NCBI RefSeq assembly: GCF_002798405.1
Contig: NZ_PGGV01000016.1
Coordinates: 248,001 to 312,000 of the forward strand
DNA: 64,000 bases
Reading direction: 5' to 3'
Source of the DNA: Glycomyces xiaoerkulensis
GTDB taxonomy: Bacteria > Actinomycetota > Actinomycetes > Mycobacteriales > Micromonosporaceae
Shown: in pieces, positions 50,692 through 57,294 of the stretch
Position numbering within the stretch: position 1 is the first letter of the stretch
Layout: each line of letters opens with the position of its first letter
The notes under the pieces: generated by a model
The model's database searches: none
Seen by the model: only the letters and a program-made list of their open reading frames with translations
Told to the model about the DNA's origin: nothing
Position numbers and translations under genes: made by a program

Positions 50692-51276
50692 TCACTCCGG
50701 CGGGGCGTGCTCGGCGAACTTCCACGCCGCCAGCCCCGCCGCCACCACGACCAGCCCGAACACGCCCCGCCAGCCGAAAGCCGGCAGCGCCGCCAGCGCC
50801 CCTGCACCGGCCCCGACCCCGGCCAGCGCCGCCAGCGCCGACAGCGCCACCGAACCGGTCCCGTCCCCGACCCGCGCGGCCACCAGCACCCGGCCCGCGA
50901 TCGCGATCACCAGCCCGGCCGCGACTCCCATCGGCAGGGACACGACCAGCAGGAACGCGAAACTCGGCGCCAGCGCGACCGCGGCCGCCGACAGCGTCAA
51001 CCCGGCCAGGGCCGCCGACCCGCTGTACCGGGCCCGGCCGACCGGCCCGGCCTGGCGCGTGGCGTTGGCCGCGGCCGCCAGCCCGAGCGCGTACACGCCC
51101 AACGGCCACAGCCGGGATCCGCCGGCGGCCCCGAAGGCCGCGCTCGCGTCGGTCACCAGGAAGGCGAGCACGGCCGCCGATGCGAAGGCGGCCGCCTGCG
51201 CGTAAGCGGCCGACGCGACCGGCACCCAGCCGATCGCGTCGGCCGTCGTGTGCTTCGAACGAGCGGTGGTTTCCAT
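50692..51276 (-). CDS. Half-length MFS-like membrane protein
   Basis: 194 residues with about six hydrophobic helices, very Ala/Val/Gly-rich; the pattern (loop TRQAGPVGRARYSG, helix pair LLVVSLPMGVAAGLVIAIAGR, then FGWRGVFGLVVVAAGL) is that of one six-helix half of an MFS transporter, about half normal length. It could be a relic or a genuine half-transporter that dimerises. ATG 51276 lies 7 nt after a TAGCTT box, implying a leaderless message. The upstream region carries the shared motif also found at the second MFS locus. Confidence 0.65.
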   Translation of the reverse strand: METTARSKHTTADAIGWVPVASAAYAQAAAFASAAVLAFLVTDASAAFGAAGGSRLWPLGVYALGLAAAANATRQAGPVGRARYSGSAALAGLTLSAAAVALAPSFAFLLVVSLPMGVAAGLVIAIAGRVLVAARVGDGTGSVALSALAALAGVGAGAGALAALPAFGWRGVFGLVVVAAGLAAWKFAEHAPPE

Positions 51277-51283
51277 GGCCCCG

Positions 51284-51327
51284 AAGCTATGGCGGCCCGC
51301 CCGCGCGGGAGTAGGTCGATCGACTGG
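51284..51327 (-). promoter_or_regulatory. Promoter of half-MFS gene with motif site 1
   Basis: On the minus strand a degenerate copy of the shared motif (51309-51327; CCAGTCG and GAC conserved, 14 of 19 positions equal to the site at 56435) is followed after 19 nt by -10 TAGCTT (51284-51289), then 7 nt to the ATG. Confidence 0.6.
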
Positions 51328-51385
51328 TGCGGATGACTGGGAATCGGCCGGTCGCCGAGCCAAGTCGGGCCCGCCCCGGCAGACC

Positions 51386-51429
51386 CCAGTCGAATGACGG
51401 ATGCGTCCCCACCGGTCCGCGGTTACCCT
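51386..51429 (+). promoter_or_regulatory. Promoter of LAL regulator gene 1 with motif site 2
   Basis: CCAGTCGAATGACGGATGC (51386-51404) points toward the regulator gene. A TANNNT box, TACCCT (51424-51429), follows after 19 nt, giving a 5' leader of about 30 nt before GTG 51466. The flanks CCAGTCG and GACGGATGC are identical to those at 56435-56453 in reverse. Confidence 0.7.
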
Positions 51430-51465
51430 GGTGGGAGCCCTGTCGCGACGAGGACTGGAGTCGAC

Positions 51466-54297
51466 GTGAAGTCCACCGCCCGCCCCGCAATCGGGGTCAT
51501 GACGAGCAAAGCCGCGGTGGAATGCCGAGTCGACGGCACGGCCCCCACCTACTGCGACGCGCCGAACCACGCCTCCCGCACCGTCCTGTACGGACGCGAT
51601 GCGGAGGTCGACGCCGTCCAGGCCCGGCTCGACGGTGCCCGCCTCGGCCACGGCGGCGCGCTGGTGGTCCGGGGCGAACCGGGCATCGGCAAATCCGCGA
51701 TCGTCGACGCCATGGTCGACCGCGCCGACGGGTTCACCGTCCTGCGCACCCTCGGCGTCGAGGCCGAGCACACCTGGTCGTACGCCGGTCTGCAGATGCT
51801 GCTGCACCCCCTGCTCGACCGCATCGACAACCTCCCGGCCGCCCAGGCCGAGGCCCTGCGCACCGCGCTCGGCATGGGCGACGGCGCCGGCCGCGCCCAG
51901 CGCCTCCAGGTCGGCCTGGCGGTGCTGAACCTGCTGGTGGACGCCTCGGCGCAGCGCCCGGTGTACGTGGTGATCGACGACGCCCACTGGCTGGACTGCG
52001 ACTCCACCGACGCGCTCCTGTTCGCCGCCCGGCGCCTGACCACCGAGTCGGTCGCGATGGTCATGGTCGTCCGCGACGGCTTCGCCCCGGTCTTCCCCGC
52101 CCCCGGCATCGCCGAACTCACGCTCGGCCCGCTCGACGCCGAAGCCTCCCAGGCCCTGCTGGACACCCGCGCCGACGCCGTGCCGTTCACCAGCCGGGAC
52201 TGGATCCTCCGCCTCGCCGAGGGCAACCCGCTCGCGCTCCTCGAGCTCCCGGTCGCCGACCACGAGGACCCGATGCACCGCCCCGAGGCCTCCAACAGCC
52301 GCTACACCACCACCTCGCGAATCAAGCAGGCGTTCACCGAGCGGATCATCGCCCTCCCCGAGAGCACCCGCACCATCATGCTGGTCGCCGCCGCCGAGGA
52401 GACCGGCGAGACGGCCGTGATCACCGAGGCCGCCGCGCGGCTCGGCGCGAACCTGTCCGACCTGGAGCCCGCCGAGATCGACGACCTGGTCCGCTACCAC
52501 ATGGGGCGCATCGAGTTCGTCCACCCGCTGATCCGTTCGGCCGCCTACCACTCGGCGCCGCGGACCCGCCGCATCGACGCCCACCGGGCCCTGTCCGAGG
52601 CGTTCGGCGAGGGCGACATCCGCCACGCCCGCCACCTGGCCGCGGCCACCACCGGCCCCGACGAGAAGGCCGCCGCCGCACTCGAATCGATCGCGTCCTA
52701 TGAGGCCGAACGCGGCGGATGCGTAGCGGAGATGGCCGCGCTCGAACGGTCGGCGTCCTTCACCCCGGAGGCTGAGGAGCGCGCCCGCCGCCTGGTCGAG
52801 GCCTCCCACACCGCCTACGCCGCCGGCCTGGTCGAGAAGGCCCTGGAGCTGGCCGAGAAGGCCGAGCGGCTCACCGAGGACCACGTGCTGCTGGCGCGGA
52901 CCGCGCTCATCCGGGCCACCATCCTGTCGTGGGCCGGGGACGCGGGCGCGTTCGAGGTGTGGATGGAGTCGGCCGAGCACTACGCGGTGACCGGCCACGA
53001 GAACACCGGCTACCCGCTGCTGCGCGGGGTGTGGAACGCGTGGGAGACCGGCGATTTCGCGAAGGTCGAGTACGCGAACGAGCTGGCCACCCGCTTCGGC
53101 GGCTCGAACAACACTTGGGCCAAGCGCCTCGCCCGCGCCGCCGCCGGGCTGAACCGGCGCCCGTGGGTGACCGCCGGGGAGGCCGTGGACGCCCTGCGGA
53201 GCCTCTACGACTACTACCAGCCGCTCCACGACGACTTCCGCCGCTTCGACCAGGTGCTGGCCGCGCGCTGGCGGCTGCTGGCCGGGGACGTGCCGGCCGC
53301 GCACCTGACCGCGAGCGAGAAGGTCCGCGACTGCCGCGAGGCGGGCGCGACGAGCCCGCTCATCCAGGCGCTGCTGGTGCAGGCGCAGACGCAGTTGCAT
53401 TACGGCCGCTACGCGGACGCGCAGGCGGCGGCGACCAGCGTGATCGAGCTGGCTGCGGAGACGAACGACCGCCGGGCGCTCATGCAGGGCCGCGTCTGGG
53501 TGCTGCTACCGATCGCGGCGATCCGCGGCGAGGAGCGGCGATGCCGCGAGCTGATCGCCGCCGCGATCGAGGACGCCCCGGAGGATTCGGTGATCCCGGC
53601 CGACACGTCGCTGGGGCTGCTCGATCTCGGGCTGGGCCGGTACGAGGCCGCGTTCGACCGGCTGCACCGCCTGGTCGAGGGTTCGACGCCGATGGAGCTG
53701 CTCACGCAGGTGCCGACGCTGGTGGAGACCGCCTTCCGGGCCGGCCGGGCCGAGGAGGTCAAGGAGGCGTTCGGCTGGTTCGCCGACTGGGCCGACGCGA
53801 CCGGGCGCCCTTACTGGGAGGCGCTGGTGGAGCGGTGCCGCGGGCTGCTGGATGCCGACGCGGAGGCGGGCGCGCACTTCGCGCGGGCGGTGGAGCTGCA
53901 CCACGCCGACGACATCGACCCGTTCGAGCGGGCGCGCACCGAGCTGGTGTTCGGCGAGTGGCTGCGGCGCGAGCGCCGGATCAACGAGGCCCGGGCGCAT
54001 CTGCGCGAGGCGACCGAGGTCTTCGAGCGGCTGGGCGCGAACCCGTGGACCGAGCGGGCGCAGGGCGAGCTGCGTGCGGCCGGGGACTCGACGGCGATCA
54101 AGACCGGCCCGGACCTGGCCGAGCGGCTGACCCCGCAGGAGCTGCAGGTAGTGCGGCTGGCCGCCGAGGGCCTGACCAACCGCCAGATCGGCGAGCAGTT
54201 GTTCGTCAGCCCGAGGACGGTGGGCTACCACCTCTACAACGCCTACCCGAAGCTCGGGGTCTCCTCCAGGACCGAACTGGCCAAGCTCAACCTGTAG
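51466..54297 (+). CDS. LAL-type LuxR family regulator, paralogue 1
   Basis: Large ATP-binding LuxR regulator, 943 residues. AAA-type NTPase at the N-terminus: Walker A GEPGIGKSAIVD, Walker B VYVVIDDAHWLD. A long helical TPR-like middle is followed by a C-terminal LuxR helix-turn-helix, LTPQELQVVRLAAEGLTNRQ and SPRTVGYHLYNAYPKLGVSS. GTG 51466 has GGAG at 5 nt; ATG 51499 is an alternative. Clearly paralogous to the regulator at 57295. Its own promoter carries the shared motif, so autoregulation is possible. Confidence 0.92.
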   Translation: MKSTARPAIGVMTSKAAVECRVDGTAPTYCDAPNHASRTVLYGRDAEVDAVQARLDGARLGHGGALVVRGEPGIGKSAIVDAMVDRADGFTVLRTLGVEAEHTWSYAGLQMLLHPLLDRIDNLPAAQAEALRTALGMGDGAGRAQRLQVGLAVLNLLVDASAQRPVYVVIDDAHWLDCDSTDALLFAARRLTTESVAMVMVVRDGFAPVFPAPGIAELTLGPLDAEASQALLDTRADAVPFTSRDWILRLAEGNPLALLELPVADHEDPMHRPEASNSRYTTTSRIKQAFTERIIALPESTRTIMLVAAAEETGETAVITEAAARLGANLSDLEPAEIDDLVRYHMGRIEFVHPLIRSAAYHSAPRTRRIDAHRALSEAFGEGDIRHARHLAAATTGPDEKAAAALESIASYEAERGGCVAEMAALERSASFTPEAEERARRLVEASHTAYAAGLVEKALELAEKAERLTEDHVLLARTALIRATILSWAGDAGAFEVWMESAEHYAVTGHENTGYPLLRGVWNAWETGDFAKVEYANELATRFGGSNNTWAKRLARAAAGLNRRPWVTAGEAVDALRSLYDYYQPLHDDFRRFDQVLAARWRLLAGDVPAAHLTASEKVRDCREAGATSPLIQALLVQAQTQLHYGRYADAQAAATSVIELAAETNDRRALMQGRVWVLLPIAAIRGEERRCRELIAAAIEDAPEDSVIPADTSLGLLDLGLGRYEAAFDRLHRLVEGSTPMELLTQVPTLVETAFRAGRAEEVKEAFGWFADWADATGRPYWEALVERCRGLLDADAEAGAHFARAVELHHADDIDPFERARTELVFGEWLRRERRINEARAHLREATEVFERLGANPWTERAQGELRAAGDSTAIKTGPDLAERLTPQELQVVRLAAEGLTNRQIGEQLFVSPRTVGYHLYNAYPKLGVSSRTELAKLNL

Positions 54298-54351
54298 GTG
54301 CGGACCGTCGCCCGGTAGCCCCACGTGTCCCGCGGTGCTATCGTACTCCGT

Positions 54352-54633
54352 ATGGAGACGATCACCCAGCGCGAATTCCGCAACAACTCTGCGGCCGTGA
54401 TGACTGCCGTTGAGAACGGGGAAACCTACGTCATCACGCGGAACGGTATCGAGGTGGCGGAGGTGCGCCCTCGCAGTCGGCGCCGGAAGGTCTCCTCCGC
54501 GGAACTGATGGAGCGGCACCGGAGGCTCCCTCCGGTCGACTACGCGGAGATGCGCAGAGAAGCCGACGAATTCTTCGGCGAGAACCGAGTCGGTGACGAC
54601 GACCCCTGGGAGCGGGCCGATGCACGAGACTGA
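54352..54633 (+). CDS. Phd/YefM-type antitoxin
   Basis: 93 residues. It starts [23 protein letters not shown], the standard Phd/YefM DNA-binding fold, with [15 protein letters not shown] next. The C-terminal half ([22 protein letters not shown]) is the toxin-wrapping tail. ATG 54352 lies about 7 nt after TATCGT (54339-54344), so it may be leaderless. It overlaps the PIN toxin by 14 nt. The whole pair is antisense to the C-terminal extension of the MFS gene at 56401. Confidence 0.9.
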
Positions 54634-56401
54634 GCCTCGAGGAGTGCTCGACACCTGCGTGTACATCGACCTTCAGGACGTCGAACTGGATCTGCTTCCC
54701 GACGTCCCCGAACTGACCGCCGTCACTATGACCGAACTGCACCAAGGCATTGCGATGGCGAGGTCGTCCTCGCAGCGCGCGGTGCGTCTGGAGAAACTCA
54801 GCGCCGCGGTCGCTGACTTCGAACCGTTGCCGTACGACGGTGAGGCCGCGAGTCGATTCGGCACCCTTGCGGCACTTGTGCTGTCGCAGGGCCGGTCTCC
54901 GAAGCCGCGCCAAATGGATCTGATGATCGCGGCGATCGCTTCGGTTCACGAGATCCCGCTCTACACCCGGAATCCGGATGACTTCCTCGGCCTGGAATCG
55001 ACACTTCGGGTCGTCGCCGTATAACGGGCGACCGCTTCGAGTGCGGGACCGCCACGGTTTCGTAGTAGCCATGGCGGCTGCTCCCAGCAGCATGGTCGCG
55101 GCGACGGTCCAAGCCGAGAGCCGGTACCCGTCGATCGCCGTCGCCCCCAGGCCCCAGGCCAGCGCCGCCAGGACCGGTCCCAGCGAGGTGCCGATCGTGC
55201 GGGTGGTGGCCATGAACGCCCCGGCCGTGCCCGACTGGTCCTTCGGAGCGGTGGCGAGCAGATAAGTGTTCATCGGGGTGTTGAACACGCCGAAGGCCAG
55301 GCCGATCGCCGCGATCCGGACGCCGATGCCCGCCGGGGAGGTCGACTCGTCGACCAGCAGGAGCGGGACGATCCCGGCCAGGAGCAGGCCCGCCCCGCCC
55401 AGTGAGACGCGCCCGGCCCCGAACCGGTCGGCCAGCCAGCCCGAGACGGGCGTCATGACCGCCAGGCCCCCGACGAAGGCCAGCAGCACGGTGCTGACCA
55501 GGTCCGGACTGACCCCGTGGACGTCGGTGAGCAGGAACGGCAGGCTGAAGTTCAGCAGGCCGGTCAACGCGGACATGAGCGTCAGGCTCAGCAGCGCACC
55601 GGCCATCGCCGGGTTCCGCAGCATCGCCACGGTCGGCGCCGAGTCGGGCCGACGGACCCACACGGCCCCCAGCGCGACGCTGGCTGCCAGCGCCGCGAGC
55701 GCGATCCACGGGGCCCGGTCGAGGTATTCGAACGCCAGCAGGAACGTGAAGATCGCGCCGCCGGAGGTCGCCAGGTCGATCAGGATCGTCCGGTCCACCC
55801 GCGGCAGGCCGGTGCCGTTGCTCGGCACCGTCGCCCGCAGGGCGATGACGGCGCCGGCCCCGGCGACGGCGAAGATCCAGAACAGCCCCCGCCAGTCGAA
55901 GGCGGCGACGATGAAGCCGCCGAGGGCGATCATGCCCATGCCGCCGATGGTCATCATCAGGGTGATCGCCGACATCGCGCGGCCGCGCTGCGTTTCGATC
56001 GAGCAGGTCACCACGATCCGGCCGGTCATCCCGAACAGCAGCCCTCCCAGCAGCCCTTGGGCGGCTCTGGCCGCGACCAGGGCCGCGAAGTTCGGTGCCA
56101 GAGCGGCCGCGGCGGAGAAGACGGTGAGGCCGCCGATCGAGAACACCGCGACCGCGCGGAGGTCGGCGCGGTCGGCCAGCCGCCCGGCGGCGATGGCGAC
56201 CGCGCCCATCGGCAGTGCGTAGGCCAGCAGGACCCAGGCGGTGGCGGCCTCGCTGACGCCGAGGGCGGTGCGGATCGGCGGGAGCCCCACCGCGACGCCG
56301 GACATGCCGCCGGCGACGACGAGCTGGGCGAAGCCGACGGCGAGGATCGTCCCCCACCGGGTGCGCTCGGCCTCCGGGGCCGGGTCGAGTGTGTTCGTCA
56401 T
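54434..56401 (-). CDS. MFS drug-efflux-type transporter with abnormal C-terminal extension
   Basis: The first about 455 residues are a complete MFS domain of roughly 12 to 14 helices: [23 protein letters not shown] (motif-A region), [19 protein letters not shown] (motif C-like) and [25 protein letters not shown]. After [15 protein letters not shown] the frame stays open for about 195 polar Arg/His-rich residues that are antisense to the whole toxin-antitoxin pair. The domain would normally end near 55030. Either the original stop was lost when the pair was inserted, or the long frame is real. ATG 56401 lies 7 nt after TACGTT (leaderless). The promoter carries the shared 19-nt motif. Confidence 0.82.
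54620..55024 (+). CDS. PIN-domain toxin (VapC-like)
   Basis: 134-residue PIN ribonuclease. Acidic active-site residues are in place: Asp in [10 protein letters not shown], Glu in TMTELHQGI, Asp in [12 protein letters not shown] and the final Asp in [14 protein letters not shown] 54620 follows GGGAG and overlaps the antitoxin. A Phd-type antitoxin with a VapC toxin is a common hybrid pairing. It would cleave RNA when the antitoxin is lost. Confidence 0.92.
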
Positions 56402-56408
56402 GGTCCCG

Positions 56409-56453
56409 AACGTACGGACGGGCCGACGCGTGCGGCATCCGTCGACCGACTGG
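56409..56453 (-). promoter_or_regulatory. Promoter of MFS gene with motif site 3
   Basis: Read on the minus strand: CCAGTCGGTCGACGGATGC (56453 to 56435), 20 nt, -10 TACGTT (56414 to 56409), 7 nt, ATG 56401. It has the same layout as the half-MFS promoter at 51276. Confidence 0.7.
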
Positions 56454-56488
56454 CTCAGCCCGGCGGGGCCGACTGGACCGGTCGGCCG

Positions 56489-56533
56489 CCGGTCGGCCGA
56501 CGGATGCGCCTCCAGTCGGTCCGTCCGTAGCTT
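56489..56533 (+). promoter_or_regulatory. Promoter of FMN reductase gene with motif site 4
   Basis: CCGGTCGGCCGACGGATGC (56489-56507), 20 nt, then -10 TAGCTT (56528-56533). With site 3 it forms an inverted pair (arms 56435-56450 and 56492-56507, one mismatch). An additional CCAGTCGG half-site lies at 56511-56518. Confidence 0.7.
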
Positions 56534-56574: not shown

Positions 56575-57168
56575 ATGTCAGAGAGGCTGAAGCTGGCCGT
56601 CATCATCGGCTCGACGCGCGAGGGCCGCTGGGGCCCGGTGCCGTCCGAGTGGATCGCCGAGCAGGCGGAGGCGCACGGGGACTTCGAGGTCGACCTGGTG
56701 GACCTGCGCGAGGCGGGCCTGCCGCAGTACCTGGGCGAGCGGGACATGTGGGCGACGCCGGAGCGGCCTTCCGAGCCGGTCGCCGGCCTGGGCGAACGCC
56801 TGCACCGGGCCGACGCCTTCGTGGTCGTGACTCCCGAGTACAACCACTCCTACCCGGCCCAGTTGAAGCACGCCATCGACTACTTCATGCACGAGTGGCA
56901 CGCCAAGCCGGTGGGGCTGATCTCGTACGGCGCCGGATCCGGGGGCGTGCGCGCGGTCGAGCACCTGCGGCAGATCTTCCCCGAGGTGCGCGCCATGACG
57001 ATCCGGCATTCGCTGGCCTTCCCGATGTACTGGGAGAAGCTCGATGAGAACGGCGAGTTCACCGGGTTCGCCGACTCGGAGCCGTTCGCCAAGGCGTTCC
57101 TCGACGAGCTCCGGTGGTGGGCGCGGGCGCTGGTCAGTGCCCGCAAGGAGGCCCCGCTGCCGGCGTGA
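56575..57168 (+). CDS. NADPH-dependent FMN reductase-like flavoprotein
   Basis: 197 residues, flavodoxin fold. The FMN phosphate loop is IIGSTREGRWG; VVVTPEYNHSYPAQLKHAID supplies the isoalloxazine-binding segment typical of FMN_red proteins, and YGAGSGGVRAVEHLR follows. ATG 56575 has only a weak purine tract before it. It is divergent from the MFS gene; both share the motif-bearing promoter region, suggesting joint response to a redox-active compound. A terminator separates it from the second LAL regulator. Confidence 0.9.
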   Translation: MSERLKLAVIIGSTREGRWGPVPSEWIAEQAEAHGDFEVDLVDLREAGLPQYLGERDMWATPERPSEPVAGLGERLHRADAFVVVTPEYNHSYPAQLKHAIDYFMHEWHAKPVGLISYGAGSGGVRAVEHLRQIFPEVRAMTIRHSLAFPMYWEKLDENGEFTGFADSEPFAKAFLDELRWWARALVSARKEAPLPA

Positions 57169-57201: not shown

Positions 57202-57294
57202 GGCCTTCGGCGGCGCCGCGGCAGCGGCACCGAGAAGGTCCGACCTGGGATTCGGGGGGTTCTGCGGCCTTTGCGCAGAGCTAGGCTTGGAGCC

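Follow-up and report, generated by a model that had tools for sequence, protein, structure and literature searches.

Two divergent intergenic regions in a 64,000-nucleotide stretch of the Glycomyces xiaoerkulensis genome (contig NZ_PGGV01000016.1, positions 248,001 to 312,000; hereafter the window) carry copies of a 19-nt motif beside two paralogous genes for large ATP-binding regulators of the LuxR family (LALs), LAL1 and LAL2, which raises the question of what reads this motif and to what end. From a comparison of the locus with related and remote genomes, we consider it likely that the motif is the operator of the adjoining LAL regulators, and that LAL1, and probably LAL2, binds it and switches on a regulon for efflux and for flavin and quinone reduction. 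Actinomycetes encode many LAL regulators, several of them within antibiotic gene clusters, but little is known of the DNA they act on. With an operator of defined sequence and fixed geometry, their binding, regulon and inducer can be put to direct test, and targets can be assigned from sequence.

An inverted repeat at a fixed distance from the -10 box

An initial annotation of this DNA had reported the motif four times, each copy ending 19–20 nt before a TANNNT -10 box. All four copies are where it placed them (Table 1), two of them full and one near-full, but the fourth, facing a small membrane-protein gene, keeps CCAGTCG-N3-GAC only. The gaps measured 19 nt for LAL1 (TACCCT) and the small membrane protein (TAGCTT), and 20 nt for the major facilitator superfamily (MFS) transporter (TACGTT) and the FMN reductase (TAGCTT), exactly in the range given, and both membrane-protein genes do begin 7 nt past their -10 boxes. 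The motif itself is real; its consensus had to be rewritten, the form conserved in relatives being CCAGTCGNNNGACRGATGC, with A more frequent than G at R before LAL1. Random scatter of the motif over coding DNA had been named as an outcome that would refute the proposal; the exact core CAGTCNNNNGACRGATG is not scattered, being found only at this locus in the 4.37-Mb genome, with two copies in the window against 0.01 expected. A pattern allowing three mismatches gave 5 places in the window against 2.46 expected; genome-wide it returned 93 places against 98 in a backwards control, and this uninformative search was replaced by the exact core. Two one-mismatch sites elsewhere in the genome (C20 and C38) lie under long open reading frames (ORFs), show no TANNNT at 19–21 nt in the sequence printed, and were put down to chance.

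The sites are conserved within the genus. We compared 21 small-protein/LAL1 regions (the window, 19 other Glycomyces and G033) and 21 MFS/FMN reductase regions (the window, 19 other Glycomyces and G025), the two genome sets being partly different. The operator facing LAL1 was present with 0–1 mismatch and a gap of 19 or 20 nt in 21/21 loci, that facing the FMN reductase with 0–2 mismatches and a gap of 20 nt in 21/21, and that facing the MFS gene with 0–3 mismatches and a gap of 19 or 20 nt in 21/21; the degenerate copy facing the small membrane protein was kept in 18/21 loci, with 3–5 mismatches and a gap of 19 nt. In one genome (L032, G020) the MFS/FMN reductase intergenic region holds a single perfect palindrome, GGCATCCGTC-N4-GACGGATGCC, which serves both divergent promoters at 20 nt from each -10 box and thereby reveals the full dyad. 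Extra GTC half-sites lay upstream, at 11–13 nt, in 20/21 FMN reductase, 17/18 aligned small-protein and 11/21 MFS promoters, and a GTC half-site also fell within the spacer between operator and -10 box in 20/21 FMN reductase promoters, 18/21 MFS promoters and 19/19 promoters of the quinone-oxidoreductase gene described below. The FMN reductase (FMN_red) promoters of three other genera (G033, G034 and G025) carried the site with 1–3 mismatches and a gap of 20 nt.

These features are consistent with a mechanism in which the operator is an imperfect inverted repeat, GTC-N4-GACRGATGC, overlapping the -35 region. Its downstream half, GACRGATGC, would lie at about -41 to -33 and take the place of a -35 element; the coordinates assume a -10 hexamer at -12 to -7 and put the dyad centre near -43, close to where a class II activator sits though slightly upstream of the classical -41.5. 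LAL1, and probably LAL2 with its near-identical recognition helix, would bind as a dimer, or alternatively as a larger STAND-type oligomer engaging the extra CCNGTCG half-sites, when the ATPase/sensor part meets an inducer, and the bound regulator would bring RNA polymerase to the -10 box at its constant distance of 19–20 nt. The predicted targets are LAL1, the small membrane protein, the MFS transporter and the FMN reductase, together with, in 19 of the 22 Glycomyces genomes, a quinone-oxidoreductase gene located elsewhere. LAL1 carries the site at its own promoter, which points to autoregulation, and the regulon probably serves to export and reduce a small molecule that is redox-active or electrophilic. 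The same proteins might instead bind the operator and repress, covering the -35 region and the spacer until released on a signal. The extra half-site within the spacer would suit such an arrangement, yet the downstream half stands at a fixed 19–20 nt from the -10 box with no visible -35 element, as in activator-dependent promoters, and repressor sites need no such constant spacing. Even with one LAL, SCO6993, described as a repressor (excerpt of PMC9628970), we regard repression as unlikely here.

Recurrence of the predicted operator beyond the locus

Further searches showed that in related genomes the motif also lies outside the LAL locus. The exact core occurred in 22/22 Glycomyces genomes, at 57 places against 2 in a backwards control, 43 of them in the LAL locus and 14 outside it. 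Twelve of these 14 precede a zinc-type quinone-oxidoreductase (QOR) gene, one precedes a gene of the erythromycin-esterase family (L072) and one is chance-like. QOR orthologues (71–100% identity to the query) carried the site with 0–2 mismatches and a gap of 20 nt in all 19 genomes having one, and 0/11 more distant QOR paralogues had it in the 250 nt read upstream. Among the 22 genomes, a close orthologue is absent from the window species, G001 and G009. A match in G002, CAGTCTAGGGACGGATG (L075), has no TANNNT at 20 nt and was counted as chance. Erythromycin-esterase-family genes were seen downstream of the operator in two genera (L072 in G009 and L243 in G033).

Across 25 whole genomes, most of which were picked because the site had already been found near a LAL gene, the core motif occurred at 58 places against 4 in the control. 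Examination of 57 sites found TANNNT at 19 or 20 nt in 38, at another gap in one and at none in the rest. Scanning 18 of the 33 ORFs listed behind sites identified FMN_red, NmrA-like reductases, isochorismatase, antibiotic-biosynthesis-monooxygenase, SnoaL-like, questin-oxidase-like, SDR, patatin and erythromycin-esterase families, with 3/18 matching none, and these families point to the handling of aromatic or quinone-like small molecules. That the repeats are no operator at all and owe their conservation to something else, for instance a structure in the RNA or descent from one ancestral intergenic region, is highly improbable: the locus's two intergenic regions might be duplicates of each other, but the motif precedes unrelated genes at remote loci, and it ends upstream of the inferred transcript start and so would be absent from the RNA.

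We then asked how far the geometry recurs beside LAL genes of other actinobacteria. A weight matrix built from 63 sites was run, at a cut-off of 10 bits, on 75 LAL loci unused in the matrix. It gave 40 hits above the cut-off, with TANNNT at a gap of 19 or 20 nt in 27 and at any of 34 other gaps (5 to 40) in one, in agreement with the class II-like, -35-overlapping placement first proposed for the motif; these hits occurred in 20 of the 75 loci, and 40 column-shuffled matrices produced none at a gap of 19 or 20 nt. The part common to the boxes, ACNGAKNC, had TAVNNT at a gap of 19/20 nt in 49 instances across 42/75 loci; the other gaps averaged 0.5 each, and reversed sequence gave 2. A shorter core, GATNC, was judged too unspecific (65 at gap 19/20 against 21 reversed). 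Two fresh sets were then read, one of 80 loci (89, with the window's own L280 excluded beforehand, less nine) and one of 22 (30 less eight); the loci dropped overlapped one another or loci already used. In 13 of the 80 loci ACNGAKNC appeared at gap 19/20, 16 times in all, with an average of 0.15 at each other gap, and in the 22 loci a recognizable box class was found at the right geometry in 9, with 0 at 13 shifted positions. Conservation of the site within the genus, the same promoter arrangement at the remote QOR gene and recurrence beside LAL genes in other families lend strong comparative support to the regulon and to the class II-like placement that the initial annotation had proposed.

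A related form, resembling CAGTCAN2TGACNGAGGC, was seen at several loci of Nonomuraea-type genomes (L231–L237; G069, G068 and G079), often at divergent pairs. It lies beside genes for a small protein, assigned to the HXXEE family at L237, and for a secreted-looking protein, which matched no family at L236; one of each was scanned.

Box classes and the LAL recognition helix

LAL loci without GTC-N4-GAC have other boxes in the same place. On balance, we favour the view that a large actinobacterial LAL clade uses one operator architecture, in which a MalT-box-like ACNGAKNC (or TCNGATNC) lies 19–20 nt before TANNNT and an upstream half varies with LAL lineage and recognition helix (GTC-N4-GAC-N-GAKGC, the window's class A; GTCAN2TGTCCG; TACNGATTC; TGACNGATTC; or GACNGATGC without GTC), forming a readable protein–DNA code. 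If so, it would become possible to predict the regulons of many orphan LALs. The helix-turn-helix (HTH) domains of the LALs can be aligned to solved LuxR-type domains, and we examined x1, the recognition-helix residue in T-V-x1-x2-H, which presumably corresponds to a base-contacting residue in NarL. In the 47 of the 75 loci with exactly one box class, x1 = E went with TACNGATTC (8/8), x1 = S with GTCAN2TGTC (6/6) and x1 = A with class A (6/6); x1 = G was mixed, with 13 class A, 8 class E and 6 class D. Mutual information with class was 1.29 bits for x1 (shuffles 0.22) against 1.07 bits for genus (shuffles 0.88). On a tree that excluded the HTH, LAL1 and LAL2 were sisters and 11/11 other members of their 13-row clade had class A, which also occurs outside this clade. 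Within the fresh 22 loci, VGYHLYKAF helices were accompanied by TGACNGATTC (2/2), VSYHLYRAF by GTCAN2TGTC (1/1) and VEYHLYKAY by TACNGATTC in one of two, the other having none. Two rules considered along the way were dropped: LALs with VGHH helices, taken as siteless, turned out to have class D or E boxes in 10 of 17 cases and class A in one, and a simple rule contrasting Y with H immediately before HL in the helix was contradicted by the fresh 80 loci.

The class data also bear on the possibility that an unlinked regulator reads the motif, or that an alternative sigma factor does so with GATGC as -35 and TANNNT as -10 element. Either would fit with the motif also occurring, within one genome, at a distance from the LAL locus, and several -10 boxes read TAGCGT(C), reminiscent of promoters of the extracytoplasmic function type. 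However, box class tracks LAL type rather than genus, only 5/55 hits of a wider generic box–TANNNT form fell in the outer flanks of LAL loci, a spacer of 20 nt between -35 and -10 would be long, the site has dyad symmetry (perfect in L032), and the LAL2 promoter has the same type of -10 box without the motif. We therefore think both improbable. The guess of the initial annotation that a LAL protein binds the motif gains strong comparative support from conservation in the genus, the remote target, recurrence beside LALs and box classes that follow LAL type.

Several observations weigh against LAL binding at these sites or against a code in the recognition helix. Within the window no operator was seen before LAL2, and the small membrane-protein copy lacks the GATGC half. 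A GAKGC core was unspecific in the 75 loci, with 38 occurrences at gap 19/20 and 32 when the sequence was reversed. Only 13 of the fresh 80 loci had the generic box and 14 a rule-based class; LALs with VEWHLRKVF, IEAHLRNIF and similar helices had no box in this set, some of whose loci were read 1.5 kb to each side, so that the box is a property of a LAL subfamily. Helix and class also disagreed in places. The 75 loci included no class in 5 of 14 x1 = E and 3 of 9 x1 = S cases, and one x1 = E locus with both A and C. The fresh 22 had VGYHLYKAY with class A in 2/6 and none in 4/6, VAYHLYKAY with class C (TACNGATTC), class D (TGACNGATTC) or none, and one IGYHLYKAY with class D. The fresh 80 had class E beside VAYHLYKAY (L296) and VEYHLYKIY (L286), and A and D together beside VASHLYKAF (L299). 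Class A stood beside VGHH helices at L163 of the 75 loci and at L275 and L279 of the fresh 80. The class–helix association is moreover partly post hoc, since classes B to E were found in helix-sorted groups, and it tracks the LAL tree as well, so that single residues are not proven causes. Evidence throughout is sequence comparison, and the operator is a predicted one. Taken together, the fresh loci indicate that the geometry is reproducible and that helix and box class go together as a tendency at the level of lineages, short of a strict code.

Related systems and the genes of the locus

MalT of the Escherichia coli maltose regulon has the same architecture as LAL1, an N-terminal ATPase and a C-terminal LuxR-type HTH, and its promoters contain several half-sites each, as here. 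Against the NCBIfam MalT equivalog, LAL1 and LAL2 scored 37.5 and 29.5 bits, below the cut-off of 537. Unlike in MalT promoters, the half-site here belongs to an inverted repeat whose upstream half is specific to the LAL subclass, and the target genes are other ones. The remaining comparisons draw on excerpts of the papers cited. The MalT box, GGA[TG]GA (PMC9628970), shares the GAK core and its degeneracy with our downstream half, RGAKGC; the latter occupies a fixed position and differs in its last base, and class C and D boxes read GATTC. SCO6993 of Streptomyces coelicolor binds its own promoter at short palindromic sites, like the site predicted for LAL1, but it has 606 aa, its authors see no consensus among the footprints, and it is reported to repress antibiotic regulators (PMC9628970). 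PimR, of the SARP-LAL type, is likewise a large ATP-binding regulator with repeated short elements upstream of its promoter; unlike LAL1, its SARP domain binds CGGCAAG direct repeats with 4-nt spacers, it lacks a LuxR HTH and its operator lies clear of the -35 region (PMC5930380). The CGGCAAG heptamer is absent from the operator in the window, which is an inverted repeat. MilO is a LuxR-type HTH activator whose repeats, TGTC(N)3CGGT, contain a TGTC element, although these number three, in direct orientation 142 bp ahead of the start, and the protein, at 356 aa with an unannotated N-terminal part, is not LAL-sized (PMC11784345). SCO0877 and SCO7173 are actinomycete LAL regulators with broad effects, for which, unlike here, no operator is defined in the excerpt (PMC3282765).

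S. coelicolor has 14 putative LAL regulators (PMC3282765), and a 2022 study of one LAL states that it could predict no consensus (PMC9628970). The excerpt of PMC10100954 holds nothing on LAL operators, and no description of this operator was found among the matches listed in the open-licence literature. Beyond the initial annotation, the present comparison adds the dyad with its RGATGC half, occurrence well beyond the genus and a regulon extending beyond the locus in relatives.

Table 1. Coordinates of the operator copies, promoter elements and genes (positions within the window)
Feature	Position	Strand	Remarks
194-aa small membrane protein	50692..51276	-	probably leaderless; no Pfam/NCBIfam match; kept beside LAL1 in Glycomyces loci
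-10 box TAGCTT, small membrane-protein gene	51284..51289	-	ATG 7 nt downstream
Degenerate operator facing the 194-aa protein	51309..51327	-	CCAGTCGATCGACCTACTC; CCAGTCG-N3-GAC part alone retained
Operator facing LAL1	51386..51404	+	CCAGTCGAATGACGGATGC; 0 mismatches
-10 box TACCCT, LAL1	51424..51429	+	
LAL1, 943 aa	51466..54297	+	AAA_16 ATPase and C-terminal GerE/LuxR HTH; recognition helix TVGYHLYNAY
MFS transporter (MFS_1)	55025..56401	-	probably leaderless; stretch as read, true 3' end not fixed
-10 box TACGTT, MFS gene	56409..56414	-	ATG 7 nt downstream
Operator facing MFS gene	56435..56453	-	CCAGTCGGTCGACGGATGC; 0 mismatches
Operator facing FMN reductase	56489..56507	+	CCGGTCGGCCGACGGATGC; 1 mismatch
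Extra half-site CCAGTCG, FMN reductase promoter	56512..56518	+	between operator and -10 box
-10 box TAGCTT, FMN reductase gene	56528..56533	+	
FMN reductase, NADPH-dependent (FMN_red)	56575..57168	+	Pfam
-10 box TAGGCT, LAL2	57282..57287	+	ATG 7 nt downstream
LAL2, 908 aa	57295..60021	+	AAA_16 and GerE; 51% identity to LAL1; recognition helix TAGYHLYKAY

Pfam assigned AAA_16 with E-values of 1.4e-20 (LAL1) and 6.1e-17 (LAL2), and GerE with 4.9e-17 and 4.2e-13, respectively. LAL1 is found, at 82–89% identity, in 20 of the 21 other genomes of the genus; for the remaining one, the fragmented G020, the best LAL1 match is a LAL2-type protein. The order small membrane protein/LAL1, MFS/FMN reductase, LAL2 is usually conserved where contigs are long enough. 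The label 'half-MFS' given earlier to the 194-aa protein found no support in Pfam or NCBIfam, where the protein matched no family, MFS profiles included; its structure model (mean pLDDT 48) gave an unreliable fold of too low quality to search with. The distance from TANNNT to its ATG is 7 nt in 19/21 loci and 6 nt in 2/21, counting the window. With start codons 6–8 nt after the -10 box in 21/21 small membrane-protein and 21/21 MFS genes, both are probably leaderless. TANNNT also lies 6–7 nt before the LAL2 start codon in 18/19 loci, and LAL2 appears to be transcribed from a leaderless promoter lacking the operator, which would suit a constitutive partner or sensor.

Two variations in gene content were noted. 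At L040 (G015) no MFS gene was seen between LAL1 and the FMN reductase gene, whose operator is retained. In the window, 54352–55024 (+), between LAL1 and the MFS gene, encodes an antitoxin of the PhdYefM type with a PIN toxin of weak similarity to VapC; by tblastn the pair occurs here and in three other Glycomyces loci (L041, L048 and L054, two of them partial), and with so few loci it looks like an insertion into a conserved locus.

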